NCBI RefSeq assembly: GCF_016862575.1
Contig: NZ_BONF01000045.1
Location: 1 to 64,000, forward strand
Reading direction: 5' to 3'
From: Catellatospora bangladeshensis
GTDB lineage: Bacteria > Actinomycetota > Actinomycetes > Mycobacteriales > Micromonosporaceae
DNA length: 64,000 bases
Within the stretch, counting starts at the first letter, position 1, and each line of letters opens with the position of its first letter. Positions 50,997 through 63,979 of the stretch are shown here, in pieces. The notes under the pieces were generated by a model that was not told where the DNA came from, searched no databases, and was given only the letters and a program-made list of their open reading frames with translations. The position numbers and the translations under genes were made by a program.

Positions 50997-52763
50997 GTGG
51001 CAAAGAGCGACGACGCGGATGCGCGCGCCGCGCGGTGGGAGAAGGAAGCCAACGATCTCTCCACTCAGGTCGCGTTCCTGCAAGAGGAGCTCGCCCTGTT
51101 GCGGCGCAAGTTGAGCGAGAGCCCGCGGCACGTACGGCAGCTTGAGGAGCGGCTCGCCGCCACTCAGGCCCAGCTGTCGCGGCTCACGGAGAACAACGAG
51201 CGGCTGGTGGCCACGCTGAAGGAGGCGCGCGCCCAGATCGTGACGCTCAAGGAGGAGATCGACCGGCTGGCGCAACCGCCCAGCGGGTACGGCGTCTTCC
51301 TGGCGCGGCATGAAGACGGCACGGTGGACGTCTTCACGGGTGGACGGAAGCTGCGGGTGGCGGTGTCGCCGTCGCTGGACGTCGACGCGCTGCAGCGTGG
51401 GCAGGAGGTCCTGCTCAACGACGCCCTCAACATCGTCGACGCGCTCGGCTTCGAGCGGGCCGGCGAGGTGGTCCTGCTCAAGGAGATCCTCGACGGCGGG
51501 GACCGCGCACTCGTGGTCTCGCACGCCGACGAGGAGCGGATCGTGTTCCTGGCGGAGGGCCTGATCGGCGGGACGCTGCGTTCCGGCGACTCCCTCATGA
51601 TCGAGCCGCGCTCCGCGTACGCCTACGAGCGCATCCCCAAGAGCGAGGTCGAGGAGCTGGTCCTCGAAGAGGTGCCGGACGTCGACTACCACGACATCGG
51701 TGGCCTGGTGCACCAGATCGAGCAGATCCGCGACGCGGTGGAGCTGCCCTTCCTGCACGCGGACCTGTTCCGCGAGCACCACCTGCGCCCGCCGAAGGGC
51801 GTGCTGCTCTACGGTCCTCCCGGCTGCGGCAAGACGCTCATCGCCAAGGCGGTGGCGAACTCGCTGGCCAAGAAGATCGCCGAGCAGCGCGGCGAGGAGA
51901 AGAAGACCAGCTACTTCCTGAACATCAAGGGTCCGGAGCTGCTCAACAAGTACGTCGGCGAGACGGAGCGGCACATCCGGCTGATCTTCCAGCGGGCCCG
52001 TGAGAAGGCCTCGGAAGGCACCCCGGTGATCGTGTTCTTCGACGAGATGGACTCGATCTTCCGGACCCGCGGCTCGGGTGTCTCCTCGGACGTGGAGAAC
52101 ACCATCGTTCCCCAGCTCCTCAGCGAGATCGACGGTGTGGAGGGCCTGGAGAACGTCATCATCATCGGCGCCTCGAACCGCGAGGACATGATCGACCCGG
52201 CCATCCTGCGCCCGGGGCGGCTCGACGTCAAGATCAAGATCGAGCGCCCGGACGCCGAGGCGGCCAAGGACATCTTCAGCAAGTACATCCTGCCGACCCT
52301 GCCGCTGTCCCCGGACGACCTGGCAGAGCACGGCGGCTCCACCGACGCGTGCGTGCACGCGATGATCAATTCGGTGGTGCTCCGGATGTACTCGGAGACC
52401 GAGGAGAACCGCTTCCTCGAGGTCACCTACGCCAACGGTGACAAGGAGGTCCTGTACTTCAAGGACTTCAACTCCGGCGCCATGATCCAGAACATCGTGG
52501 ACCGCGGCAAGAAGATGGCGATCAAGGAGTTCCTGTCCTCGGGCAAGAAGGGCCTGCGCCTGCAGCACCTGCTGGACGCCTGCCTGGACGAGTTCCGCGA
52601 GAACGAGGACCTGCCGAACACCACGAACCCGGACGACTGGGCACGGATCTCCGGCAAGAAGGGCGAGCGGATCGTCTACATCCGCACGCTCGTCTCCGGC
52701 GGCAAGGGCACCGAGTCGGGCCGGTCCATCGAGACGGCCAGCAACACCGGCCAGTACCTGTAA
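50997..52763 (+). CDS. mpa: Proteasomal AAA ATPase (Mpa/ARC)
   Basis: The 588-aa ATPase unfolds Pup-tagged proteins for the 20S proteasome. An N-terminal coiled coil (about 15-85) binds Pup, an OB-type domain follows, then the AAA core with Walker [18 protein letters not shown] (about 270-286) and Walker [13 protein letters not shown] (about 344-355), and the Arg-finger region [11 protein letters not shown]. The last residues GQYL are the C-terminal docking tail of Mpa. GTG 50997 follows GGGGAGG. The usual neighbours dop, pup and prcBA are not found in the window. Confidence 0.96.
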
Positions 52764-52775
52764 CACGAGCACGCG

Positions 52776-52807
52776 AAAGGGGCGCCCGGTCCGCCGGGCG
52801 CCCCTTT
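52776..52807. terminator. Bidirectional hairpin between mpa and lhgO
   Basis: Perfect 14-bp stem AAAGGGGCGCCCGG / CCGGGCGCCCCTTT with a 4-nt loop and T/A runs on both sides, placed between convergent stops. Confidence 0.9.
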
Positions 52808-52820
52808 CCGCTGCGTGAGG

Positions 52821-54017
52821 TCAGGCCGCCAGGTCGGCGGGCAGCCGCGACACGATGTGCTTGGCGATCTCGAACGAGCTGGTCGCCGCGGGGGAGGGCG
52901 CGTTGAGCACGTGCACCTGCCGCTCCGCCTCCACGATCAGGAAGTCGTCGACCAGGCCGCCGTCGGGGCGGATCGCCTGGGCGCGCACCCCGGCACCGGC
53001 CGGCACGATGTCCTCGCCGGTCAGCACGGGCACCAGCCGGGCCAGGCTGGCCGCGAACTTCTTGCGCGACAGCGAGCGGTGCACCTCGGTCAGGCCGTAC
53101 CGGTAGTGCTTGCGGGCCAGCGCCCAGAGCCCGGAGTAGGTCACCTCGTCCCAGACGTCCCGCGGGCTGATCTTCCCCCACGAGTAGCCCTCGCGGGCGG
53201 TGGCCAGCACCGCGTTCGGGCCCGCGTGCACGGTGCCGTCGATCATCTTGGTCAGGTGCACGCCCAGGAACGGGAACTGCGGGTCCGGCACCGGGTAGAT
53301 CAGGCCCTTGACCAGGTCGCGGCGCTGCGGGGTCAGCTCGTAGTACTCCCCGCGGAACGGGACGATGCGCACCGGGGTGTCGACCCCGGCCATCCGGGAG
53401 ATCCGGTCGGCGTGCAGGCCCGCGCAGTTGATCAGCACGTCGGCGATGATCTCGCCCTTGGTGGTGGTCACCACCACGCCGCCCGCGCGCTGCCGGATCG
53501 CGGTGACCTCGGTCTCGGTACGCAGGTCCGCGCCGCCCTCGGCGAGCAGCTCGGCGATGCGGCGGCACACCGCGCCGAAGTCAACGATGCCGGTGGAGGC
53601 GACGTGCAGCGCGGCGACGGCGGCCACGTGCGGCTCGTACTCGGCGGCCTCGGCCTGGCCGATGAGCTTCACGGGCAGCCCGTTGGCGACCGAGCGCTGG
53701 TGCAGGTCCTGCAGGCGGGGCAGCTCGGACTCGTCCGTCGCCACGATCAGCTTGCCGCAGATGTCGTACGCCAGGCCCTGCTCCTTGCAGAACTCGACCA
53801 TCGACGCGCTGCCGGCCTTGCACAGGGTGGCCTTGAGGCTGCCGGGCTTGTAGTAGACGCCCGCGTGGATCACGCCGGAGTTGTGGCCGGTCTGGTGCGC
53901 GGCCCAGCCCGCCTCCTTCTCGACCACCGTGACGGAGTCCTCAGGACGGTCCGTGAGCAGGCGATGCGCGACGGCAAGACCCACGATTCCGCCACCGACC
54001 ACCACAAACCTAGTCAT
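52821..54017 (-). CDS. lhgO: L-2-hydroxyglutarate oxidase (FAD-dependent)
   Basis: The 398-aa flavoenzyme of the DAO/GlpD superfamily has FAD-binding FVVVGGGIVGLAVAHRLL (about 4-21), HNSGVIHAGVYYKPGSLKA (about 45-63), which is the LhgO signature, and the C-terminal RAQAIRPDGGLVDDFLI. It oxidises L-2-hydroxyglutarate to 2-oxoglutarate. GGAGGAG precedes the ATG by 6 nt. It is divergent from the aminotransferase gene, and a -10 hexamer (TAAGCT) precedes it at 54054-54049. Confidence 0.9.
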   Translation of the reverse strand: MTRFVVVGGGIVGLAVAHRLLTDRPEDSVTVVEKEAGWAAHQTGHNSGVIHAGVYYKPGSLKATLCKAGSASMVEFCKEQGLAYDICGKLIVATDESELPRLQDLHQRSVANGLPVKLIGQAEAAEYEPHVAAVAALHVASTGIVDFGAVCRRIAELLAEGGADLRTETEVTAIRQRAGGVVVTTTKGEIIADVLINCAGLHADRISRMAGVDTPVRIVPFRGEYYELTPQRRDLVKGLIYPVPDPQFPFLGVHLTKMIDGTVHAGPNAVLATAREGYSWGKISPRDVWDEVTYSGLWALARKHYRYGLTEVHRSLSRKKFAASLARLVPVLTGEDIVPAGAGVRAQAIRPDGGLVDDFLIVEAERQVHVLNAPSPAATSSFEIAKHIVSRLPADLAA

Positions 54018-54048
54018 TTCACTCCTCCGCCCGGCCGCAACGGCGTCG

Positions 54049-54108
54049 AGCTTAGGCCATTCGGACCTCCGGCCGACTGGCGACCGCCCTGGTCCGGTGG
54101 CCTACACT
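54049..54108. promoter_or_regulatory. Divergent promoter region of lhgO and the glycan genes
   Basis: Minus strand TAAGCT (54054-54049) for lhgO; plus strand TACACT (54103-54108) for the aminotransferase. No palindrome is evident. Confidence 0.45.
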
Positions 54109-54138
54109 TCTCGGGTCGCTCACAAGGGGAGGTCCCAC

Positions 54139-55284
54139 ATGTCTGACGTCATCGCGCTCGGCCAGCCCACGGTCGGCGAGCCGGAGCTCGCCGCCATCGC
54201 CGAGGTGTTCGCGTCAGGCTGGCTGTCGGGGGCCGGTCCCACCTGCAAGAAGTTCGAGGAGCGCTTCGCCGCCGCGATGGGCGTGCAGCACGCGCTGACC
54301 ACGAGCAACTGCGGCTCGGCGCTGCACCTGGCGCAGCTGGTGCTGGGCGTGAAGCCGGGCGACGAGGTGATCGTGGGCGACTACACCTTCCCGGCGACCG
54401 GCCACTCGGTGATGTGGACCGGGGCCCGCCCCGTCTTCGCCGACGTGCGCCCCGACACCTGGACCATCGACCCGGCCGTGGTCGAGTCCCTGATCACCCC
54501 GCGCACCGTGGGCATCATCGCGGTCGACGCGTTCGGCCAGCCGGCCGACTACGACGAGCTGCGCGCCATCGCCGACAAGCACGGCCTGTTCGTCATCGAG
54601 GACGCGGCCTGCTCGGCCGGTGCGACGTACAAGGGCCGCCCGGCGGGCAGCCTGGCCGACATCGCCACGTTCAGCTTCCACGGCCGCAAGGGCATCACCT
54701 CGGGCGAGGGCGGCGCGCTGGTCACCGACCGCGCCGACCTGGCCGCCAAGGCCCGCAAGCTGCACACCTACGGCGTCGAGGGCGCGCTGACCCGCGCCGA
54801 GCTGTCCAAGCTGCCCATCCCGACCTTCGACGAGCTGGGCTACAACTACCGGCTCTCCGACATCCAGGCCGCGATCATGCTGGCCCAGCTGGACCGGCTG
54901 CCCGAGCTGCTCGCCGTCAAGCGCCGCATCGCGGCCCGCTACGGCGAGCTGTTCAAGGACCACGAGCTGATCACCGTCCCGTTCGAGGCGCCCGACCGCG
55001 AGCACCCCTGGCAGTCGTACGTGGTGACGCTGGACCCGGCGGTCAGCCGCGCCGAGGTCGCCATGGCGCTGCGCGAGCGCGGCGTGCAGTGCACCTTCGG
55101 CACCTACGCCTCGCACCTGCAGCCGCTGTACGGTGAGACCAACCCCTGCCCGGTCTCGGCGGACCTGTTCGACCGGCACCTGGCCATCCCGATGCACGCG
55201 AACCTGACCGACGCGCAGGTCGAGACGGTCGCGGCCACCCTGATCCAGGTCGTCGACTCCCTCGCCGCCGGCCGCGCCAACTAA
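54139..55284 (+). CDS. DegT/DnrJ/EryC1/StrS-family sugar aminotransferase
   Basis: The 381-aa PLP enzyme converts a nucleotide-linked keto-sugar into an amino sugar. The PLP lysine is in FSFHGRKGITSGEGGAL (about 177-193). TSNCGSALHLA and VIVGDYTFPATGHSV match the family's PLP-phosphate region, and LGYNYRLSDIQAAI is near residue 233. GGGGAGG precedes the ATG. It heads a run of genes for glycan modification on the same strand: epimerase, acetyltransferase and glycosyltransferase. Confidence 0.92.
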   Translation: MSDVIALGQPTVGEPELAAIAEVFASGWLSGAGPTCKKFEERFAAAMGVQHALTTSNCGSALHLAQLVLGVKPGDEVIVGDYTFPATGHSVMWTGARPVFADVRPDTWTIDPAVVESLITPRTVGIIAVDAFGQPADYDELRAIADKHGLFVIEDAACSAGATYKGRPAGSLADIATFSFHGRKGITSGEGGALVTDRADLAAKARKLHTYGVEGALTRAELSKLPIPTFDELGYNYRLSDIQAAIMLAQLDRLPELLAVKRRIAARYGELFKDHELITVPFEAPDREHPWQSYVVTLDPAVSRAEVAMALRERGVQCTFGTYASHLQPLYGETNPCPVSADLFDRHLAIPMHANLTDAQVETVAATLIQVVDSLAAGRAN

Positions 55285-55292
55285 GATCACTT

Positions 55293-55333
55293 CTGCGGCC
55301 CAGGCCGTTCCCCTCGTAACACCGCGGCCGCAG
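55293..55333 (+). terminator. Possible attenuator between aminotransferase and epimerase genes
   Basis: CTGCGGCC and GGCCGCAG form an 8-bp stem with a 25-nt loop in the 80-nt gap; CAGGCCGT is also repeated directly. Weak evidence. Confidence 0.35.
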
Positions 55334-55364
55334 GCCGTGCTCCTCCCTCCCAGAAAGGTCCGCA

Positions 55365-56297
55365 ATGTCAAAGAAGACCGTCTTCATCACCGGAGGCGCC
55401 GGTTTCATCGGCCTGCACGTGGTCCGGCTGCTGCTGGAGAAGGACTACCAGGTCCGGATCTTTGACAACATGTCGCGCGGCGACCGCGAGCGCATCGACG
55501 AGCTGGTCAAGACCGGCAACGTCGAGCTGGTGGAGCAGGACGTGCGCTACGGCGGCGCCGTGCACGCGGCCATGAAGGGCTGCGAGTCGGTCATCCACCT
55601 GGCCGCGGTGTCGATCAACAAGAGCCAGGCGGACCCGTACGAGTCGATCGACATCAACGTCGTCGGCAACAACAACGTCTTCGCCGCCGCCGCCGACCAC
55701 GGCGTGCGCCGCATCGTGTTCGCCTCCTCGGCGTCGGTCTACGGCGACCCGAAGAAGCTGCCGATGCACGAGGACGACGAGCTCAGCCCGCTCACCCCGT
55801 ACTGCATCGCCAAGCGCACCGGCGAGGACCTGCTCGGCTTCTACCAGCGCAGCAAGGGCCTGAACTGGGTCGCCCTGCGCTTCTTCAACGTGTACGGCCC
55901 CGGCCAGAAGCCGACCGCGTACTACACCTCGGTCATCAACCACTTCGTCAAGCGCCTCAAGACCGGCCAGCCGCCGATCATCGACGGCAAGGGCGAGCAG
56001 TCGATGGACTTCATCCACGTGCACGACATCGCGCGCTCGGTCGTCGCGGCGCTGGAGTCGGAGCAGGGCAACGTGCCGGTCAACATCGGCACCGGCATCG
56101 ACACCACGGTGGCGTCGCTGGCCGAGATCCTGATCAAGGCCGTGGGCGTGGACGTGGAGCCGCAGTTCAACCCGCGCGAGGTGCTGGTCAGCCGCCGCGC
56201 GGCCGACATCACCCGGGCCAAGGAGGTCCTCGGCTGGGAGCCGACGATCACCGTGGGCGACGGCATGACCGACCTGATCAAGTCGGAGATCGGGTGA
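55365..56297 (+). CDS. NAD-dependent epimerase/dehydratase (extended SDR)
   Basis: The 310-aa enzyme has TGGAGFIGLHVVRLL (GxxGxxG, about 9-23), ASSASVYGDPKKLP near 125 and the catalytic YCIAK (about 150), features of nucleotide-sugar 4-epimerases and 4,6-dehydratases. The exact reaction is not readable. Its stop overlaps the acetyltransferase start (GTGA). A strong ribosome site (AGAAAGG) precedes the ATG. Confidence 0.9.
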   Translation: MSKKTVFITGGAGFIGLHVVRLLLEKDYQVRIFDNMSRGDRERIDELVKTGNVELVEQDVRYGGAVHAAMKGCESVIHLAAVSINKSQADPYESIDINVVGNNNVFAAAADHGVRRIVFASSASVYGDPKKLPMHEDDELSPLTPYCIAKRTGEDLLGFYQRSKGLNWVALRFFNVYGPGQKPTAYYTSVINHFVKRLKTGQPPIIDGKGEQSMDFIHVHDIARSVVAALESEQGNVPVNIGTGIDTTVASLAEILIKAVGVDVEPQFNPREVLVSRRAADITRAKEVLGWEPTITVGDGMTDLIKSEIG

Positions 56298-56743
56298 CCC
56301 AGCCGCATCCCGGCCTGCCGGAGAACCCGTACAACCCGCACGCGTGGATCATCGGGGAGCCGGTCATCGGGCCGGGCACCTGGATCGGCGCGTTCACGGT
56401 GATCGACGGGTCCGGCGGGCTGACGATCGGCTCCGGCTGTGACATCAGCTGCGGCGTGCAGATCTACACCCACTCGTCTGCACGCCGCTGCGTGTCCGGC
56501 CGCGCCTACCCCCAGGTCGACCGCGCGCCGGTGACCATCGGCGACCGCGTCTTCATCGGCGCGAACGCGACGATCATGATGGGCGTGACCATCGGCGACG
56601 GCGTCGTGATCGGCGCCGGCGCGGTGGTCACCAAGGACGTCCCCGCGGGCACCGTGGTGGCCGGCGTGCCGGCCCGCCCGGTGGCCGCGGTGGAGGTCGA
56701 CGGCACGGACGTACGCTTCACCCCCCTCGCGGCACACAGCTAG
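56294..56743 (+). CDS. Hexapeptide-repeat acyl/acetyltransferase
   Basis: The 149-aa protein is a left-handed beta-helix transferase with repeated hexapeptides (IGEPVIGPGTWIGAFTVIDG, IGSGCDISCGVQIYTHSS, IGDRVFIGANATIMMGV, IGDGVVIGAGAVVTKDVPAG). It likely N- or O-acetylates the amino sugar made by the two preceding genes. It is coupled by a 4-nt overlap. Confidence 0.9.
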   Translation: MTQPHPGLPENPYNPHAWIIGEPVIGPGTWIGAFTVIDGSGGLTIGSGCDISCGVQIYTHSSARRCVSGRAYPQVDRAPVTIGDRVFIGANATIMMGVTIGDGVVIGAGAVVTKDVPAGTVVAGVPARPVAAVEVDGTDVRFTPLAAHS

Positions 56744-56755
56744 GAGCCAGCGCCG

Positions 56756-57943
56756 GTGCGTATCGCGGTAGTCAACAACTTCTTCCCCCCTCGCGCGGGC
56801 GGCAGCTCGCACCTGTCGGAGTCCCTCGCCAAGGGCTACGCCGAGCAGGGCCACGAGGTCCTCGTCCTCACGGCGGCGTACCAGAACGCCCCCGCGGTGG
56901 AGGAGCGCGACGGCATGCGCATCGTGCGCCTGCCCGCCTGGATGCTCCCGCAGACCAGGCTCGCGGTCAGCTTCGACATCTCGTTCACCAGCCGGCCCAC
57001 CCTGCTGCGCGCCGTGCGCAAGCTGCTGGACGAGTTCAAGCCGGACGCCATCCACCAGCACGGCCAGTTCTTCGACCTGACCTGGGCGACCGCGCTCTAC
57101 GCGCGCAAGCGCCGGGTGCCGGTGCTGCTGTCCATCCACACCCGGCTGGAGAACCCCTCGGCGAGCTACGCCAAGGTGTTCCGCGGCCTCGACGCGCTGA
57201 TGGTCAAGCCGTTCATGCGCCGCTCCAAGCCCCGCCTGGTGGTCATGGACGTGCTGATGGACGAGTACATCCGGGACCGCTACCGCGGCGCGTACTCCGG
57301 CCTGGACTACATCCCGGTGGGTGTGGACCCGACCTGGGTGCGCGGCGGCGACGGCCGGGGCGTGCGCGAGAAGCACGGCCTGGGCGACGCCCCCGTGATC
57401 CTGTCGGTGGGCCACATCATCCCGCTGCGCGACCGGCTGATGCTGGTCGAGGCGCTGCCGAAGGTGCTCGCGGCGGTGCCGGACGCGAAGCTGCTGGTCG
57501 TCGGGCAGGTCTACTACCCGCTGTTCCTGGAGCGGGCCAAGGCCCTCGGCGTGGACCACGCGGTCATCAGCACCGGCCCGGTGGCCAAACGGGAGATCCC
57601 GGACTACCTGGCCGCGGCCACCGTCGAGTGCCACGAGCAGGGCTTCGGCATCGGCACGGCGAGCCTGGAGGCGATGGCCGGCGGCGTGCCGGTGGTCGTG
57701 CCGGCCCGCCCGGACAACTTCCCCGGCATCGGCCTGGAGGACGGGCAGAACATCCTGCTCTGCGCCCCCGGCGACGTGGAAGCGATGGCCGAGCGCCTCA
57801 TCGCGGGCCTGACCGACCCCGCCGTGGCCAAGCAGGTCGGCGCGAACGGCCAGGACCTGATCGACCAGCACTTCACCCTCCAGCGTGTGCTGGAGCGGCA
57901 CCTGGAAGTGCTCGGCACCATGGTGGCGGCCCGGGGCCGCTGA
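56756..57943 (+). CDS. GT4-family glycosyltransferase
   Basis: The 395-aa retaining glycosyltransferase has a GT-B fold: AVVNNFFPPRAGGSSHLSES at the N-terminus, VGHIIPLRDRLMLVEALPKV near 220 and the EX7E-type donor site HEQGFGIGTASLEAMAGGVP (about 293-312). GTG 56756 is 10 nt after GGAG. It probably transfers the modified sugar to a lipid or polysaccharide acceptor. A hairpin terminator follows. Confidence 0.9.
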   Translation: MRIAVVNNFFPPRAGGSSHLSESLAKGYAEQGHEVLVLTAAYQNAPAVEERDGMRIVRLPAWMLPQTRLAVSFDISFTSRPTLLRAVRKLLDEFKPDAIHQHGQFFDLTWATALYARKRRVPVLLSIHTRLENPSASYAKVFRGLDALMVKPFMRRSKPRLVVMDVLMDEYIRDRYRGAYSGLDYIPVGVDPTWVRGGDGRGVREKHGLGDAPVILSVGHIIPLRDRLMLVEALPKVLAAVPDAKLLVVGQVYYPLFLERAKALGVDHAVISTGPVAKREIPDYLAAATVECHEQGFGIGTASLEAMAGGVPVVVPARPDNFPGIGLEDGQNILLCAPGDVEAMAERLIAGLTDPAVAKQVGANGQDLIDQHFTLQRVLERHLEVLGTMVAARGR

Positions 57944-57962
57944 CCCCGAACGAAAGCTGAGG

Positions 57963-57987
57963 GGCCGTCCGCACATCGCGGGCGGCC
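57963..57987 (+). terminator. Hairpin after the glycosyltransferase
   Basis: GGCCGTCCGC / GCGGGCGGCC (one G-T pair), 5-nt loop, 20 nt past the stop. Confidence 0.7.
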
Positions 57988-58085
57988 TCGCCGCTTATCC
58001 GGGCTGATTCCCGTCGATCGCCCATGCGACGCGGGATGTTCAGCCCGCGTACACCAAGGCTGCAACAGGCCGTATACCAGCCGCG

Positions 58086-58097
58086 TAGGCTCGGCTC
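58086..58097 (+). promoter_or_regulatory. -10 hexamer before the ACP operon
   Basis: TAGGCT, 6 nt, then ATG 58098, so a leaderless transcript would begin at the mini-ORF described next. Confidence 0.45.
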
Positions 58098-58181
58098 ATG
58101 GCTCACGGTTCGGGGTATTTGCCCGGACTGTCCGAGCCGTACCCGCCGCGAGGATCTGGAGAACGACCGCCATGCCCCTGA
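58098..58181 (+). CDS. Candidate 27-codon leader ORF of the ACP operon
   Basis: ATG 58098 encodes 27 residues (MAHGSGYLPG..., Gly/Pro-rich) and its stop overlaps the ACP coding start by 10 nt. It starts where a leaderless transcript would start. It may couple translation to the ACP gene, or be chance. Confidence 0.3.
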   Translation: MAHGSGYLPGLSEPYPPRGSGERPPCP

Positions 58182-58411
58182 CCGAGCGCCTGCGCACCGT
58201 GTTCGCCGACGCCCTGCAGCTGCCGCCCGGCACCGACGTGGACCAGCTGAAGTACCGCGACATCGAGCAGTGGGACTCGCTGGGCCACATGACGCTCGTC
58301 GCCGCGATCGAGGACGAGTTCGGCGTGCAGCTCGACACCGACCAGGTCATCGACCTGTCCTCGTTCAAGGTCGCGGCCGACATGCTGCGCGACGCCGGCG
58401 TCGATGAGTGA
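58172..58411 (+). CDS. Acyl carrier protein
   Basis: The 79-aa protein has the 4'-phosphopantetheine serine in WDSLGHM (about 30-36), with helix II following, and acidic composition. It is a standalone ACP opening a five-gene operon of acyl activation and reduction, so it probably carries the acyl chain used by the ligase and reductase. GGAGAA precedes the ATG at a longer spacing. The stop overlaps the SDR start. Confidence 0.9.
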   Translation: MPLTERLRTVFADALQLPPGTDVDQLKYRDIEQWDSLGHMTLVAAIEDEFGVQLDTDQVIDLSSFKVAADMLRDAGVDE

Positions 58412-59159
58412 GCTGACCGGCCGCGTCGCCCTGGTCACGGGGGGCACCCGGGGCATCGGCCTGGCCACCGTACGCGCCCTGCGCGCGGCCGGGGCCACGG
58501 TCGTGCTCACCGGGCGTGACCAGGCCGCGGCCGAGAAGGTCGCCGCCGAGCACGGCGCGCACGGCCTGGCCCTGGAAGCGGGCGACTTCGCCGCCACCGG
58601 CGATCTCGTCAAGCGGGTCGCCGCCGAGCACGGCGGCCTGGACGTGCTGGTGGTCAACGCCGGGATCATGGAGAGCGGCCTGCTCGGCATGATCCGGGCC
58701 GCCGACGTGGCCCGCACGCTGGACGTCAACGTGGCCGGGGCGGTCGCCGCGGTGCAGGCCGCGAGCCGTGCGATGGCCCGCCGCCGCACCGCGCCCGACG
58801 GCACCACCCGCACCGGCGGCGCGATCGTGCTGCTCGCCTCCGTCGTCGGCACCCACGGCGCGGCCGGCCAGAGCGTGTACGCCGCCTCCAAGGCCGCCGT
58901 CGCCGCGCTGGCCCGCTCCGCCGCCCGCGAGCTGGGCGGGCGCGGCATCCGCGTCAACGCCGTGGCCCCGGGCGTGATCCGCACCGAGCTGACCGCCGCG
59001 CTGCCCGCCGAGGTCCTGGACAGGCAGGCCGCCGCCGCGCCGCTGGGCCGCCTCGGCGAGCCGGACGAGGTCGCCGACGTGATCCGCTTCCTGGCCGGCG
59101 ACGGCGCCCGCTACGTCACCGGGCAGGTGCTCGGCGTCGACGGAGGGCTGCTCCCGTGA
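58404..59159 (+). CDS. SDR-family oxidoreductase (FabG-like)
   Basis: The 251-aa enzyme has TGGTRGIGLATVRALRAAG (about 12-30), VNAGIMESG near 86 and the catalytic YAASK (about 158), and ends with VTGQVLGVDGG, all classical SDR features. It could reduce a 3-ketoacyl-ACP or oxidise a hydroxyl in the product. It overlaps the ACP and ligase genes at both ends. Confidence 0.9.
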   Translation: MSELTGRVALVTGGTRGIGLATVRALRAAGATVVLTGRDQAAAEKVAAEHGAHGLALEAGDFAATGDLVKRVAAEHGGLDVLVVNAGIMESGLLGMIRAADVARTLDVNVAGAVAAVQAASRAMARRRTAPDGTTRTGGAIVLLASVVGTHGAAGQSVYAASKAAVAALARSAARELGGRGIRVNAVAPGVIRTELTAALPAEVLDRQAAAAPLGRLGEPDEVADVIRFLAGDGARYVTGQVLGVDGGLLP

Positions 59160-60577
59160 CCCTGGTGGCGCCCACGGCCCGGCTCGTCGACGCGGCGACC
59201 GGGGCGGTGCTGGCCGGGGCGGAGCTGTCCGCCGAGGTCGCGCGGCACGCGGCCGGGTACACCGACGCGCCCGCCGGGGTCGTCTTCGCGCGCAGCGCGC
59301 TGACCACCGCGTCGGTGCTGCGCTACGCGGGTGCGTTCCGGGCGGGCCGCCCGGTGGCGCTGCTCGATCCGGCGCTGGCTCCCGCCGTGCTGGCCGACTT
59401 CGTGACCCGCTTCGAACCCGCCGTGGTGGTCGGGGTCGGCGAGGGCGGCGCCGGGGCGGAGTTGTGCGAGCTGCCCAAGGGCTACGACGACACCGAGCAC
59501 CCGGTCCTCGGCCGCTGCTGGGTGCGCCGGACCGCGCCCGCCGCACTGCCCCACCCGGACCTGGCCGTGCTGCTGGCGACGTCCGGCTCCACCGGCGATC
59601 CCAAGTTCGTGAGGCTGTCGCGGGCGGCCGTGCTGGCCAACGCGCACGCCATCGGCGACGCGCTGGCCCTGGGCCCGGACGAGATCGCCCCGACCAGCCT
59701 GCCGCTGTTCTACAGCTACGGCATGTCCGTGGTGAACAGCCACCTCGCGGCGGGCGCGACGCTGCTGGTGGTCGACGGCGGCGTGCTGGCCAAGGAGTTC
59801 TGGCAGGCCGTGGACGCCCACCAGGCGACGTCGCTGGCCGGGGTGCCCTACAACTACGAGATGCTGCACCGGATCCGGTGGCGGCCGGGGCGGCACCCGT
59901 CGCTGCGTACCCTCACCCAGGCCGGCGGGCGGCTGCGCGACGAGCTGATCCTGCACTTCCACGAGCAGATCAGCGCCTCCGGCGGGCGCTTCCACGTGAT
60001 GTGGGGCTGCACCGAGGCCGCGCCCCGGATGAGCACCCTGCCCGCCGACGGCCTGCCCGGCAGCGTCGGCTCGGTCGGCCCCGCGCTGCCCGGCGGCGCG
60101 TTCACGGTGCTCGCCGACGACGGCACCGAGTCCGCCGACCCGCACGTCACCGGCGAGCTGGTGTACCGCGGCCCGAACGTGATGATGGGCTACGCCACCG
60201 CCGTGGCCGACACGGCGCGCGGCGACGACCAGGCGGGCGCGCTGCGCACCGGCGACCTGGGCTACCTCGACGAGCGCGGGTTCGTGTGGCTCAAGGGGCG
60301 GCTCAAACGGTTCGGCAAGATCTTCGGGATCCGGGTCAACCTGCACGATATCGAGGACCTCGTCCGCGCCGACGGCCCGGCGGTCGCGGTGTCCGGCCCG
60401 GACAGGGTGGTGGTCTTCGTCGTGGGCATCGACGCCGAGGCCGCGCAGGCGCTGGCCGGGCGGCTGTCCGAGCGGCTCAGGGTGCACCGCACCGGCTTCG
60501 ACGTACGCCCCGTGGACGCGCTGCCGCAGCTGCCCAACGGCAAGATCGATTACCGTGCCCTGGAGGCCCTGGCATGA
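59156..60577 (+). CDS. AMP-dependent acyl/aryl ligase (ANL superfamily)
   Basis: The 473-aa enzyme has the ATP-binding loop LLATSGSTGDPKFVRLS (about 139-155), GELVYRGPNVMMGYA (about 336), the A7 core RTGDLGYLDERGFVWLKGR (about 363-381) and the A10 lysine in LPNGKIDYRAL (C-terminus). It activates a carboxylic acid as acyl-AMP and probably loads the ACP of the operon. It is shorter than typical acyl-CoA ligases at the N-terminus. GTGA overlap with the SDR gene. Confidence 0.88.
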   Translation: MTLVAPTARLVDAATGAVLAGAELSAEVARHAAGYTDAPAGVVFARSALTTASVLRYAGAFRAGRPVALLDPALAPAVLADFVTRFEPAVVVGVGEGGAGAELCELPKGYDDTEHPVLGRCWVRRTAPAALPHPDLAVLLATSGSTGDPKFVRLSRAAVLANAHAIGDALALGPDEIAPTSLPLFYSYGMSVVNSHLAAGATLLVVDGGVLAKEFWQAVDAHQATSLAGVPYNYEMLHRIRWRPGRHPSLRTLTQAGGRLRDELILHFHEQISASGGRFHVMWGCTEAAPRMSTLPADGLPGSVGSVGPALPGGAFTVLADDGTESADPHVTGELVYRGPNVMMGYATAVADTARGDDQAGALRTGDLGYLDERGFVWLKGRLKRFGKIFGIRVNLHDIEDLVRADGPAVAVSGPDRVVVFVVGIDAEAAQALAGRLSERLRVHRTGFDVRPVDALPQLPNGKIDYRALEALA

Positions 60578-61623
60578 CCGTGTTCACGCTCACCCAGCCC
60601 GAGCGGGAGGCACGGCTGCTGCCCGAGCTGGCCGAGCTGACCGAGCACCACCGCGCGCACAGCCCCGAGTACGCCCGCCTGCTCGCGGCCCTGGGCCACG
60701 GGCCGGGGACCGCGTACGACACGGTCGCGGACCTGCCCTGGCTGCCGGTGCGCCTGTTCAAGCATCACGAGCTGCGCAGCATCCCGGCCGGCGACGTGTT
60801 CAAGGTGCTCACCTCGTCCGGCACCACCGGCGACGTGAGCCGGATCTACCTGGACCGCGACGCCGCCGCGCTGCAGCAGCGCATGCTCTCGGTGACGATG
60901 CAGACCGTCATCGGGGCCAAGCGGCTGCCGATGCTGCTGGTCGACACGGTGTCGCTGTTCAAGAACCGCAGCTCCTTCTCCGCACGCGGAGCCGGGGTGC
61001 TGGGCATGATGAACTTCGGCCGCGACCACGTCTTCGTGCTCGACGAGCACGACCAGCCCGACCTGGACGCGGTCAAGGGCTTCCTGGCCAAGCACGGCGA
61101 CCAGCCGTTCCTGATCTTCGGTTTCACGTTCATGGCCTGGCAGTTCCTCTACGAGCTGGCCCGCGACAACGGGCTGGATTTGAGCAACGGCATCCTGATC
61201 CACAGTGGCGGCTGGAAGAAGCTGGCCGACCGCGCCGTCGACAACGACGAGTTCCGCCGCCGCTTCGCCGCCGACACCGGCCTGCGCCGCATCCACAACT
61301 TCTACGGCATGGTCGAGCAGATCGGGCTGACCTTCCTGGAGGGCCCGGACGGCGGCGGCCTCTACTGCCCCGACTTCTCCGACGTGATCGTGCGCGACCC
61401 GCACACCTGGGAGCCGGTGCCGCACGGCACGCCCGGCGTGGTCGAGGTGATCAGCACGCTGCCGCGCTCGTACCCGGGACATGTCCTGCTCACCGAGGAC
61501 CGAGGCGTGATCCACGGCGTCGACGACGGCGCCTGGCCCGGCAAGCGCTTCTCCATCCTGGGGCGGCTGCCCCGGGCCGAGGCGCGCGGCTGCAGCGACA
61601 CGTTCTCGGAGGCGAAGGCATGA
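60574..61623 (+). CDS. LuxE-like acyl-protein synthetase
   Basis: The 349-aa protein has the LuxE family's adenylation loop FKVLTSSGTTGDVSRIY (about 71-87) and VSLFKNRSSFSARGAG near 123, YGMVEQIGLTFLEGPDGGG near 242 and the ending PRAEARGCSDTF. LuxE activates fatty acids and hands them to LuxC for reduction. Together with the next gene it is an acyl reductase complex. ATGA overlaps join it to the neighbours. Confidence 0.88.
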   Translation: MTVFTLTQPEREARLLPELAELTEHHRAHSPEYARLLAALGHGPGTAYDTVADLPWLPVRLFKHHELRSIPAGDVFKVLTSSGTTGDVSRIYLDRDAAALQQRMLSVTMQTVIGAKRLPMLLVDTVSLFKNRSSFSARGAGVLGMMNFGRDHVFVLDEHDQPDLDAVKGFLAKHGDQPFLIFGFTFMAWQFLYELARDNGLDLSNGILIHSGGWKKLADRAVDNDEFRRRFAADTGLRRIHNFYGMVEQIGLTFLEGPDGGGLYCPDFSDVIVRDPHTWEPVPHGTPGVVEVISTLPRSYPGHVLLTEDRGVIHGVDDGAWPGKRFSILGRLPRAEARGCSDTFSEAKA

Positions 61624-62855
61624 GCAAGGTGCTGGAGCGGTTCCCGGCCGGGGGCGAGGTCGCGGTCGAGGACCTGCTCGCGGCGGTGCGGCAGACCCCG
61701 GACGGCGGCCCGCTGCGGGTCGGCGACGAGCGCGTCACCGACTTCCTCGTCGCGTTCGCGCGGCAGCTGCTCAAGCCGGTTGTGGCGCGCCGTTATCCGG
61801 AGCTGGGCTCGCTCGGGTTCTTCCTGCGCCGGGGCGAGCTGGCCAAGGCCGCCGCCCGGGTCGCCGACCAGCCGGGACAGCTCCGCTTCCCGCGCGGCCT
61901 GGTCTTCCACGTGCCGCCCGCGAACGTCGACACCATCTTCGTGTACTCCTGGGCGCTGTCCGCGCTGGCCGGCAACGCCAACGTGGTCCGCATCTCGTCC
62001 CGCTCGGCCGGGGCGGCCACCGCCGTGCTGGAGGCGCTCAACGAGACCCTGGACGGGGCGCATCCGGCGCTGCGGCAGACCCAGCGCATGGTCACCTACG
62101 GCCGCGACGACGCGGTCACCGCCGCGCTGTCCGCCGCCGCCGACCTGCGGGTCATCTGGGGCGGCGACGCCTCGGTGCGCGAGATCCGGCGGCACCCGCT
62201 CGCCCCGCACGCCCGTGACCTGACCTTCCCGGACCGCTCTTCGTTCACGGTGATCTCCGCTGCGGGCTGGCTGAGCGTGTCCGAGGCGGCGCGGGACGCC
62301 GGGGCGCGGGGGCTCTACAACGACGCGTACTGGTTCGACCAGGCCGCCTGCTCCTCCCCGCGCGCCGTGTACTGGGTGGGCACCCCGGAGCAGGCCGCCG
62401 CGGCCCGCACGGACCTGCTGGCCCGGCTGCGTACCGTGCTGGACGCCGTCGGGGTCGAGGTCGACGCGGCGATGGCCGTCGAGAAGCGGGTGGCCGCCTA
62501 CGGCCTGGCGCTGGAGGGCGACGCCACCGGCATCGCCTTCGACGGCAACGAGCTGGCCACGGTCGACCTGGCCGACCCCGGCGCGATCCCGCGCCGCTGG
62601 CTCGGCGTGGGCACGTTCCCGCAGGCCGTGGTGCCGTCGCTGGACGCGCTCGCCGCCGTGGTGGTGCGCCGGGACCAGACCGTCGCCCACTTCGGCTTCA
62701 GCGCTGAGGAGCTGACCGCGTTCGCCCACCGCCTGGCCGGGCGCGGCGTGGACCGGCTCGTGCCGCTCGGCGACGCGCTCAGCTTCGCCGGGATCTGGGA
62801 CGGCTACGACCTGATGCACGAGTTCACCCGCATCACCACCGTGCTCGCCCGCTGA
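61620..62855 (+). CDS. LuxC-like acyl-CoA/acyl-protein reductase
   Basis: The 411-aa enzyme is of the aldehyde dehydrogenase-related LuxC family: FHVPPANVDTIFVYSWALSA (about 98-117), NVVRISSRS, VIWGGDASVREIRRHP near 180, and the catalytic Cys in FDQAACSSPRAVYW (about 240). It reduces an activated acyl group to an aldehyde with NADPH. No luciferase (luxAB) gene is present, so the product must serve another purpose. A terminator follows. Confidence 0.9.
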   Translation: MSKVLERFPAGGEVAVEDLLAAVRQTPDGGPLRVGDERVTDFLVAFARQLLKPVVARRYPELGSLGFFLRRGELAKAAARVADQPGQLRFPRGLVFHVPPANVDTIFVYSWALSALAGNANVVRISSRSAGAATAVLEALNETLDGAHPALRQTQRMVTYGRDDAVTAALSAAADLRVIWGGDASVREIRRHPLAPHARDLTFPDRSSFTVISAAGWLSVSEAARDAGARGLYNDAYWFDQAACSSPRAVYWVGTPEQAAAARTDLLARLRTVLDAVGVEVDAAMAVEKRVAAYGLALEGDATGIAFDGNELATVDLADPGAIPRRWLGVGTFPQAVVPSLDALAAVVVRRDQTVAHFGFSAEELTAFAHRLAGRGVDRLVPLGDALSFAGIWDGYDLMHEFTRITTVLAR

Positions 62856-62869
62856 CCCCGGCAGACGGC

Positions 62870-62903
62870 GGAGCCCCCGCCGAGGCGTCTCGACGGGGGC
62901 TCC
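62870..62903. terminator. Bidirectional hairpin after the luxC-like gene
   Basis: Perfect 10-bp stem GGAGCCCCCG / CGGGGGCTCC with a 14-nt loop, between convergent stops. Confidence 0.85.
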
Positions 62904-62920
62904 GGCTGTGCAGAAAGCGT

Positions 62921-63979
62921 TCAGGCGGTTTTGGCGAGGGTGCGCTTGGCGGCCAGGGCCGCGGCACCGGCGCCCAGCAGGTCCGCCGCGGTGAAGACCA
63001 GGCGGGAGGCGACCGCGATGCCCATCGCCGCGCCCACGCCGCCCGCGTCGGCCAGGAACGGCGCCATCGCGGCCACCAGGACCGCCTCGCGCACGCCCAG
63101 CCCGGACGGGGACAGGAACGCGAACATGCCCACGATCATGGCGATGGCGAACGCCCCGACGCACAGCAGCAGGCCCTTCGCGCCCGGTGCGGCCTGGGCG
63201 TTGGTCAGCAGCCACAGGTGTACGCCGAACAGCGTGTAACCCAGTGCGCTCCAGCCGATCACCCGGCCCACGCCGGGGAAGGTCAGGCTGTGCTGCAGCG
63301 GCGGCCGGCGCAGCACCTTCAGCACCAGCTGCACCAGGCGGGTCAGCACCGCCGGGATCGAGCAGATGATCGCGATCGGCACCAGCACCGCCACGATGAT
63401 CAGCGCCACCTTCACCGAGCCCGCGTAGTCCGAGTCGGTGCTCTCCGCCGCCGACAGCAGCTGCGGCAGGCTCAGCAGGCCCAGCGCGAGCGCCGCGGCC
63501 ACGGTCAGGCCCAGCGACACCAGCGTGGCCAGGAACGCCCGCGCCCGGGGCAGGCCCGCGCGCTTGCCCAGCTCGACCTGCAGCACGTACGCCCAGACGC
63601 TGCCCGGGATGTACTTGCCCAGCTGGCCGACCATGCAGATCTGCAGTGCCGCCGGCACCGAGATCCGGTGTTCGAGATCACGCGCCGCGGCCCGCCACGC
63701 CATCGAGTTCGCGAACATGCCCGCGAGCGCGAACAGCACGGACAGCGCCACCGACTCCCAGGCGAGTCCGAGCCAGGTCTCACGGACCTTGGGCCATTGG
63801 CTGACGATGCTCCAAGCGATACCCGCCACGATGGCGGCGATGACGACCAGGCGGATCGCCAGGGAGACCCACCGGGGAAGGCCCCGGGACGCCGCTGCGG
63901 GCGCCGCCTCGGGATCGGGCCGGGAGGGGGGAACCGGCTCGGCGCCGGGCCGAGTCGCGGTCTTGGCCACGGTTTCCAT
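62921..63979 (-). CDS. UPF0104/lysylphosphatidylglycerol-flippase-type membrane protein
   Basis: The 352-aa protein has a Pro/Glu-rich cytoplasmic tail (1-35) and about eight membrane segments. The family phrase SVWAYVLQVELGKRAGLPRA (about 125-144) and AFLSPSGLGVREAVLVAA (about 285) mark the PF03706 group, which includes MprF flippase domains and glycan-lipid flippase-like proteins. It may move a glycolipid across the membrane, fitting the nearby glycan genes, though it is on the opposite strand. ATG 63979 is 21 nt from the window edge, so its promoter is not visible. Confidence 0.85.
   Translation of the reverse strand: METVAKTATRPGAEPVPPSRPDPEAAPAAASRGLPRWVSLAIRLVVIAAIVAGIAWSIVSQWPKVRETWLGLAWESVALSVLFALAGMFANSMAWRAAARDLEHRISVPAALQICMVGQLGKYIPGSVWAYVLQVELGKRAGLPRARAFLATLVSLGLTVAAALALGLLSLPQLLSAAESTDSDYAGSVKVALIIVAVLVPIAIICSIPAVLTRLVQLVLKVLRRPPLQHSLTFPGVGRVIGWSALGYTLFGVHLWLLTNAQAAPGAKGLLLCVGAFAIAMIVGMFAFLSPSGLGVREAVLVAAMAPFLADAGGVGAAMGIAVASRLVFTAADLLGAGAAALAAKRTLAKTA

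Follow-up and report, generated by a model that had tools for sequence, protein, structure and literature searches.

A 64,000-nt stretch of the Catellatospora bangladeshensis genome (assembly GCF_016862575.1, contig NZ_BONF01000045.1, positions 1 to 64,000), hereinafter the window, contains a compact block of five genes that encode an acyl carrier protein (ACP), a FabG-like short-chain dehydrogenase/reductase (SDR), an AMP-forming ligase of the ANL type, a LuxE-like acyl-protein synthetase and a LuxC-like acyl reductase. We propose, with a probability that we put at roughly 60%, that this cassette is a transferable donor module that provides a short hydroxyacyl-ACP for the acylation of amino sugars, probably those of a surface glycan. 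The proposal is based on gene content, gene order and its conservation, the presence of the catalytic residues, the identity of the neighboring genes and the existence of acceptor clusters that are free of the cassette. The block itself is known from other bacteria, and the version in the window, with its acceptor cluster of the GnnA/DegT/LpxA type, would be a variant.

The first-pass annotation of this DNA had described five genes overlapping by 4-8 nt, and the gene coordinates and Pfam matches agree with this description, although the interval originally given (58086-62903) is a loose bracket. All five genes are located on the forward strand, and the successive overlaps along the ACP, SDR, ligase, LuxE and LuxC genes are 8, 4, 4 and 4 nt. 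Motif inspection indicates that the catalytic residues of the ACP, the ligase, the SDR, LuxC and LuxE are all in place. In particular, C340 of the LuxE-like protein and C244 of the LuxC-like protein do not vary across the 10 aligned rows of each protein and pair, respectively, with the GCS motif in the C-terminal region of LuxE and with the cysteine of the DQQAC motif of LuxC in 7xc6; we take these two cysteines to be the counterparts of those that relay the acyl group between the luminescence enzymes. The Pfam scan of the cassette detected no ketosynthase or dehydratase. The ligase remained below the cut-off for each of the 25 NCBIfam models shown, and side matches to the cispentacin proteins AmcB and AmcH were also far under the cut-off.

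The block shares with the luminous luxCDE genes the LuxE and LuxC families and the two cysteines but differs from them in the addition of an ACP and a ligase. Furthermore, the NCBIfam equivalog models of the long-chain enzymes were missed by a wide margin (60.9 of 550 bits for LuxE and 41.5 of 750 bits for LuxC), and no luciferase family was found in the ten window proteins and the four next downstream that were scanned, the remaining window proteins lying outside the scan. The absence of luxAB asserted in the annotation accordingly holds for the scanned proteins and, together with the low equivalog scores, leads us to reject a link to bioluminescence. A luciferase-like PF00296 gene is present near many of the Amycolatopsis loci, beside a HAD gene and outside the cassette. 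The genome of C. bangladeshensis encodes a second, weak PF05893 match (24.7 bits; contig C16:51987-52658, locus L002).

When named bacterial genomes were scanned with the LuxE alignment, at least 593 stretches were obtained, at least 570 of which contain relatives; the 80 loci referred to throughout are the best 80 LuxE relatives of these at least 570, and all belong to Actinomycetota. In each of the 80 loci, the five genes are found on the same strand, in the same order and within 6 kb. Both this complete conservation of gene order and the location of DegT genes in the genome of C. bangladeshensis (8.83 Mb, nine DegT-family matches, three of them full length), where two of the three full-length genes flank the block, indicate that the association is beyond chance. 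The expectation of the annotation that the five genes keep company with one another and with amino-sugar genes was borne out, given that DegT genes are present in 78 of the 80 loci. In unselected samples, each including the C. bangladeshensis genome, LuxE passed the threshold of E <= 1e-20 in 3 of the 396 genomes that represented the phylum, in 33 of the 397 for the order and in 57 of the 200 for the family; the distribution of the cassette is patchy and concentrated in some families.

The cassette is not confined to actinomycetes. The gene order of the window was found on a Deinococcus plasmid (L021), whereas Ponticoccus (L022) retains the ACP-SDR-ligase-LuxE array, with LuxC moved away and reversed. 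A Rhizobium plasmid (L023:2176-14359) carries a rearranged version that consists of genes for a split transketolase, an LpxA-like protein, ACP, ligase, DegT, LuxE, LuxC, SDR, a GMC oxidoreductase and FabZ. Actinomycete exceptions include a locus with another gene order (L016), one with LuxE and LuxC alone (L015) and one without an ACP match (L177). Among the more distant occurrences, a Pantoea plasmid (L178:6902-10283) encodes LuxE, LuxC and a FabG-like protein near an AAA ATPase and TssD, where the annotation shows neither an ACP nor a ligase, and a Streptomyces europaeiscabiei plasmid (L180:932-9390) carries a distant LuxE-LuxC pair beside DUF692, MBL-fold and YcaO-like genes, possibly a peptide modification system in which LuxE-LuxC functions as a carboxylate reductase. 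Kibdelosporangium aridum (L040) and a record labelled Rhodococcus rhodnii (JOAA01000035.1, L039) have nearly identical LuxE proteins, with end branches of 0.004, and a shared gene order; the R. rhodnii record may carry a wrong label or foreign sequence.

The genomic context of the cassette points to sugar acylation. In addition to DegT, the 80 loci contain genes for PF03706 proteins (58 loci), GnnA-like enzymes (58), LpxA-like acyltransferases (56) and enzymes of pseudaminic acid (Pse) biosynthesis (11). A sugar acyltransferase is encoded within 10 kb of the cassette in 67 of the 80 loci, either LpxA-like (56) or a PseH-type GNAT (11) and in no case both. In 53 of the 56 loci with an LpxA-like gene, this gene shares the strand of the ACP gene and ends less than 250 nt upstream of it, and in one locus (L013), the two genes overlap by 4 nt. 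In Actinoplanes and its kin, the cassette adjoins genes for PseB, a PseC-type DegT protein, and PseF- and PseG-like proteins, in some cases along with a PseI-type NeuB; a GNAT of the PseH kind is present in 4 of the 11 Pse-type loci. Seven loci that lack LpxA, GnnA and Pse genes (L029, L030, L032, L033, L037, L041 and L052) all possess a divergent PseH-type GNAT gene next to the ACP gene. Outside the phylum, LuxC overlaps a PglD-type gene by 4 nt in Deinococcus, and LuxE overlaps a PseH-like gene by 4 nt in Ponticoccus. The active-site histidine of the LpxA-like proteins is conserved in 56 of 57 aligned rows, the remaining row having a gap. At the chain-length position, 52 of the 57 rows contain Met and the others Leu; this is presumably the site that limits chain length in one LpxA, where Met would still allow about C10.

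Comparison with relatives lacking the cassette suggests modular behavior. Among the 397 genomes of the order, LpxA-like genes were found in 39, LuxE in 33 and both in 22, with the two genes within 7 kb of each other in 21 of the 22 (Fisher p 8e-18 for co-occurrence, with kinship ignored). In the family sample, all 6 of the 200 genomes with LpxA also encode LuxE, within 6 kb in 5 cases; the sixth LpxA copy (G479) is distant from LuxE and contains a stop. The order sample includes 17 cassette-less (LpxA-only) loci, all of which were retrieved; 13 have GnnA and DegT beside LpxA, and none shows LuxE. In 7 of these 17 loci (L170, L173, L175, L182, L183, L184 and L188), LpxA is followed by PF03706 within 240 nt, whereas 37 of the 80 cassette loci have, according to a simple gene caller, a contiguous LpxA-ACP-SDR-ligase-LuxE-LuxC-PF03706 run. 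Given that this junction occurs with and without the cassette, the cassette behaves as an insertable unit, whether by gain or by loss, within a fixed acceptor cluster. The annotation had suggested that the PF03706 protein might move the product of the cassette in particular; however, PF03706 is also found near LpxA in 8 of the 17 cassette-less loci and hence is better assigned to the acceptor cluster. Two LpxA-only loci (L168:5927-8852 and L171:8530-11199) are of a different kind: the LpxA-like gene adjoins genes for FkbH (308.3 and 249.9 bits, respectively; cut-off 146.65) and an ACP, without GnnA or LuxE. FkbH forms glyceryl-ACP, a short hydroxyacyl-ACP, and the FkbH-ACP pair may be another source of short acyl groups for the LpxA-like family. 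Two further loci (L186 and L187) have just a DegT gene beside LpxA.

In the scheme that we infer, with respect to the order of reactions, the substrate, the acyl group and the acyltransferase acting in this genome, LuxE would adenylate a small acid, probably a C4 dicarboxylate (malate, for example), at one of its carboxylates and hold the acyl group on C340; LuxC would receive the acyl group on C244 and reduce it with NADPH to a semialdehyde; and the SDR would convert the aldehyde to an alcohol. The ANL ligase would then activate the other carboxylate and load the hydroxy acid onto the ACP, from which an LpxA-like or PseH-type acyltransferase, depending on the host cluster, would transfer the acyl group to a nucleotide amino sugar at its free amine. 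If LuxE, LuxC and the SDR indeed act first and on another carboxylate, the presence of two activating enzymes would be explained. In C. bangladeshensis, the acceptor would most likely be a UDP-GlcNAc3N-type sugar produced by a GnnA-like enzyme and the second DegT protein, both encoded just beyond the window.

Cassettes of the same composition have been described in other bacteria. The group II flagellin glycosylation islands of Aeromonas encompass acp, fabG, an AMP synthetase gene, luxE and luxC in the same order as in the window (PMC7874193), and the same five families, in an order that is not given, are represented in islands of Enterobacteriaceae (PMC4875605). In both papers, these genes are interpreted as fatty-acid or lipid genes. 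The five Aeromonas ORFs are reported to adjoin pseH. Pse-type actinomycete loci such as L017 and L099-L102 resemble the Aeromonas islands; the window differs in that its genome lacks flagellin and its cassette is combined with an acceptor cluster of the GnnA/DegT/LpxA type instead of Pse genes. The absence of PF00669 from the C. bangladeshensis genome rules out a role in flagellin modification there, and none of the NCBIfam Pse models scored above the cut-off in the cluster.

The flagellin of Aeromonas AH-3 carries a 376.14-Da pseudaminic acid derivative and an unknown terminal unit of 102 Da, and the mutant of fgi-1 alone, in which, as we read it, the five cassette genes are intact, retains just the 376-Da sugar (PMC7874193). 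By calculation, a C4H6O3 acyl unit has a mass of 102.032, and Pse5Ac7Ac with one acetyl swapped for it, Pse5Ac7(C4H6O3), of 376.148. A second system with LuxE-type genes is the tetronate pathway (wbe/rfb genes) of Vibrio cholerae O1. WbeL (471 aa) is required for the O1 antigen and is predicted to function in tetronate synthesis, 3-deoxy-tetronic acid being the N-acyl group of perosamine (PMC3441752), and RfbN, which belongs to the 3-deoxy-tetronic acid pathway, carries a LuxE domain (PMC4772473). The similarity to the window, as drawn from the papers, lies in the size of WbeL, close to the 473 aa of the ligase, the LuxE domain of RfbN and the N-acylated 4-amino sugar as the end product. We take RfbN to be a LuxE-LuxC fusion, RfbK to be the ACP, WbeL the ligase and RfbM an alcohol dehydrogenase; to our knowledge, this pathway includes no SDR. 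A C4H6O3-type acyl group thus appears in one system that has LuxE-type genes and would fit another; here arithmetic and literature converge, which falls short of a demonstration.

The acceptor cluster also has a possible counterpart among known systems. GnnA and GnnB function in the formation of lipid A with 2,3-diamino-glucose (PMC7663294, PMC5644692). Like the GnnA-GnnB-LpxA system, the C. bangladeshensis cluster combines a UDP-GlcNAc 3-dehydrogenase-like gene (129.1 bits) with DegT and LpxA-like genes; the differences are that the host is an actinomycete, that the LpxA-like protein scores below the equivalog cut-off, and that the acyl donor would come from the cassette and not from fatty acid synthesis. 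We know of no lipid A in actinomycetes. Among the titles and abstract openings listed in searches of open-access literature, none names an actinomycete version of the cassette or an assigned chemistry. The searched text of PMC4481668 contains no word beginning with lux, that of PMC7371886 neither acyl nor acyl carrier, and that of PMC9290775 no masses.

A bolder version of the proposal is that LuxE and LuxC constitute a general carboxylate reductase which, together with the ACP, SDR and ligase, forms a plug-in that converts a C4 dicarboxylate to dihydroxybutanoyl-ACP, is swapped among amino-sugar clusters across phyla, replaces the N-acyl group of relatives on surface glycans and accounts for the 102-Da and 376-Da units of Aeromonas; we offer this extension tentatively and consider it somewhat more likely to be wrong than right. 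The block is a common one, given the at least 570 stretches with LuxE relatives in the named genomes, and so far has been interpreted in terms of lipid synthesis. If it is instead a short hydroxyacyl donor, the N-acyl group would become predictable for many glycan clusters in actinomycetes and Gram-negative bacteria, and the unassigned mass of the flagellin glycan would become testable; relatives with and without the cassette would represent a natural experiment, and LuxE/LuxC would have a role as a small-acid carboxylate reductase beyond luminescence.

Several observations weigh against the donor module. Neither type of acyltransferase is within reach in 13 of the 80 loci, namely, those of Micromonospora (L024-L027), L034, L051 and 7 of the 11 Pse-type loci; in L024-L027, where no LpxA is in reach, a hexapeptide protein precedes the ACP, and in L034:5913-7555 and L176:12768-14410, a PylC-like ATP-grasp and HAD pair occupies the usual place of LpxA before the ACP. 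The counts are not independent, inasmuch as 36 of the 80 loci, selected as best matches, come from Amycolatopsis. The Met at the chain-length position is found in 9 of 9 cassette-less LpxA rows and in 50 of the 55 linked ones, the other 5 having Leu, and accordingly is no marker of the cassette, which weakens this residue as a divider between cassette-linked and cassette-less LpxA. In C. bangladeshensis, the LpxA-like gene is not adjacent to the ACP gene, and in the tree its product is separate from the main group of cassette-linked proteins and shares a clade with 4 of the 9 cassette-less rows tested and with two copies, from Umezawaea and Lentzea, that are distant from their cassettes. This placement weakens the case for this LpxA-like protein as the dedicated partner of the cassette, and the identity of the receiving acyltransferase in this genome is uncertain. 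With regard to the masses, O-methylglyceroyl, propionyl plus glyceroyl, and formyl plus dimethylglyceroyl are isomers that match equally well, and the 102-Da unit was published as a terminal carbohydrate (PMC7874193). No measured product or enzyme activity of the cassette was found among the titles and abstract openings listed in searches of open-access literature.

The principal competing explanation is the published one, namely, that the product of the cassette is an acyl group, an aldehyde or an alcohol of the fatty or hydroxy-fatty kind, by which a sugar is anchored or lipidated to yield a liposugar. LuxC and LuxE of luminous bacteria do use fatty acids, and LpxA of Gram-negative bacteria takes hydroxy-fatty acyl-ACP; this is also how the genes are treated in the two papers on flagellin and enterobacterial islands (PMC7874193, PMC4875605). 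Nevertheless, the lack of a ketosynthase and a dehydratase in the cassette and the failure to reach the long-chain LuxE and LuxC models are at odds with this route, as are the masses of the fatty acyl groups tried on Pse, 372.19 for hexanoyl and 400.22 for octanoyl, neither of which agrees with 376.14. The residue at the presumed chain-length position of LpxA, Met or Leu, points in the same direction, although about C10 would still be allowed, and altogether we consider the lipid route unlikely. The first-pass annotation had envisaged a different order of events, in which the ligase loads an acid onto the ACP, the SDR modifies the ACP-bound acyl group, and LuxE and LuxC release an aldehyde or alcohol for the decoration of a glycan or lipid. 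The order of the genes, ACP-SDR-ligase-LuxE-LuxC, and the FabG-like nature of the SDR are compatible with such a sequence; by contrast, LuxE proteins activate free acids rather than ACP thioesters, and the recurrent partner of the cassette is an acyltransferase from families that use acyl-thioesters, which makes this order quite improbable. What stands of the annotation is the joint occurrence of the five genes in an amino-sugar setting, and what we would change is the aldehyde or alcohol end point, given that the neighbors, LpxA-like in 56 and PseH-type in 11 of the 80 loci, favor an acyl-ACP destined for a sugar acyltransferase, the order of the steps being a prediction; as a whole, the earlier interpretation is partly supported.

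It is also conceivable that the cassette belongs to small-molecule secondary metabolism and merely resides beside glycan genes, as might be surmised from the distant LuxE/LuxC pairs elsewhere, such as the one next to the DUF692, MBL-fold and YcaO genes on the Streptomyces plasmid, and from the spread of the cassette, found in 3 of the 396 genomes of the phylum. Such a coincidence appears highly improbable in view of the DegT genes in 78 of the 80 loci, compared with three full-length copies in the entire C. bangladeshensis genome, and of the position of the cassette between LpxA and PF03706, at a junction that is cassette-free in 7 of the 17 relatives. A donor module for amino-sugar acylation therefore is the reading that we prefer.

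The genes upstream of the cassette in the window were correctly described in the annotation, the gene calls and Pfam matches confirming a DegT aminotransferase, an epimerase, an acetyltransferase and a GT4 glycosyltransferase on the same strand (Table 1). Homologs of these genes were detected in cassette-less relatives: those of DegT (66-69%) and the epimerase (71-75%) in the same four (L172, L175, L184 and L185), those of the hexapeptide acetyltransferase (72-76%) in five and those of GT4 (57-63%) in three (L170, L183 and L188). These four genes and the PF03706 gene are best considered parts of the acceptor cluster rather than of the cassette. The 228-nt gap between the GT4 and ACP genes suggests that the five-gene block may have its own promoter. 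The cluster extends past the window (L019), where a second DegT gene, a gene for a Gfo/Idh/MocA enzyme and the LpxA-like gene are followed by Dop, Pup, PrcB and PrcA. The Gfo/Idh/MocA gene adjoins the DegT gene, and the best NCBIfam match of its product is UDP-GlcNAc 3-dehydrogenase, at 129.1 bits under a cut-off of 450. The LpxA-like protein of L013, with 185.3 bits, is also under the LpxA equivalog cut-off of 226.

Table 1. Genes of the cassette and of the surrounding cluster in C. bangladeshensis (coordinates in the window unless a contig is given)
Feature	Position	Strand	Evidence and remarks
ACP, 79 aa	58172-58411	+	PF00550 (PP-binding) 31.0 bits; DSL motif, residue 35
FabG-like SDR, 251 aa	58404-59159	+	PF13561 (adh_short_C2) 191.5 bits; TGGTRGIG, YAASK; putative aldehyde-to-alcohol role, substrate predicted
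ANL (AMP-forming) ligase, 473 aa	59156-60577	+	PF00501 (AMP-binding) 133.5 bits; TSGSTGDPK, PNGK; proposed ACP loader
LuxE-like acyl-protein synthetase, 349 aa	60574-61623	+	PF04443 169.5 bits, cut-off 24.9; C340
LuxC-like acyl reductase, 411 aa	61620-62855	+	PF05893 97.3 bits, cut-off 21; C244 sole cysteine
L-2-hydroxyglutarate oxidase (LhgO), cluster edge	52821-54017	-	NF008726 575.3 bits, cut-off 299
DegT/DnrJ/EryC1 sugar aminotransferase	54139-55284	+	PF01041 359.8 bits
NAD-dependent sugar epimerase/dehydratase	55365-56297	+	PF01370 189 bits
Hexapeptide (LbH) acetyltransferase, 149 aa	56294-56743	+	PF14602/PF00132
GT4 glycosyltransferase	56756-57943	+	PF13692, PF13579
PF03706 membrane protein, facing the block	62921-63979	-	51.2 bits, cut-off 33.4
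LpxA-like acyltransferase	contig C45:66313-67032	-	173.8 bits, LpxA equivalog cut-off 226

At the edge of the cluster, the window encodes LhgO, homologs of which are present in 13 of the 80 cassette loci and in 5 of the 17 cassette-less LpxA loci (L167, L169, L170, L174 and L188). WbpB-type dehydrogenases produce 2-hydroxyglutarate during the recycling of NAD, and LhgO may clear this by-product of the GnnA-like enzyme.

The entire glycan cluster (50997-63979 in the window, continuing in L019, C45:62000-80000) is located between the gene for the proteasome ATPase (ARC/Mpa) and the Dop-Pup-PrcB-PrcA genes. In 9 of 9 cassette-less sister genomes, a GT2 gene occupies this interval, in which no gene of the cluster was detected; a 65% relative of this GT2 is retained on another contig of the C. 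bangladeshensis genome.

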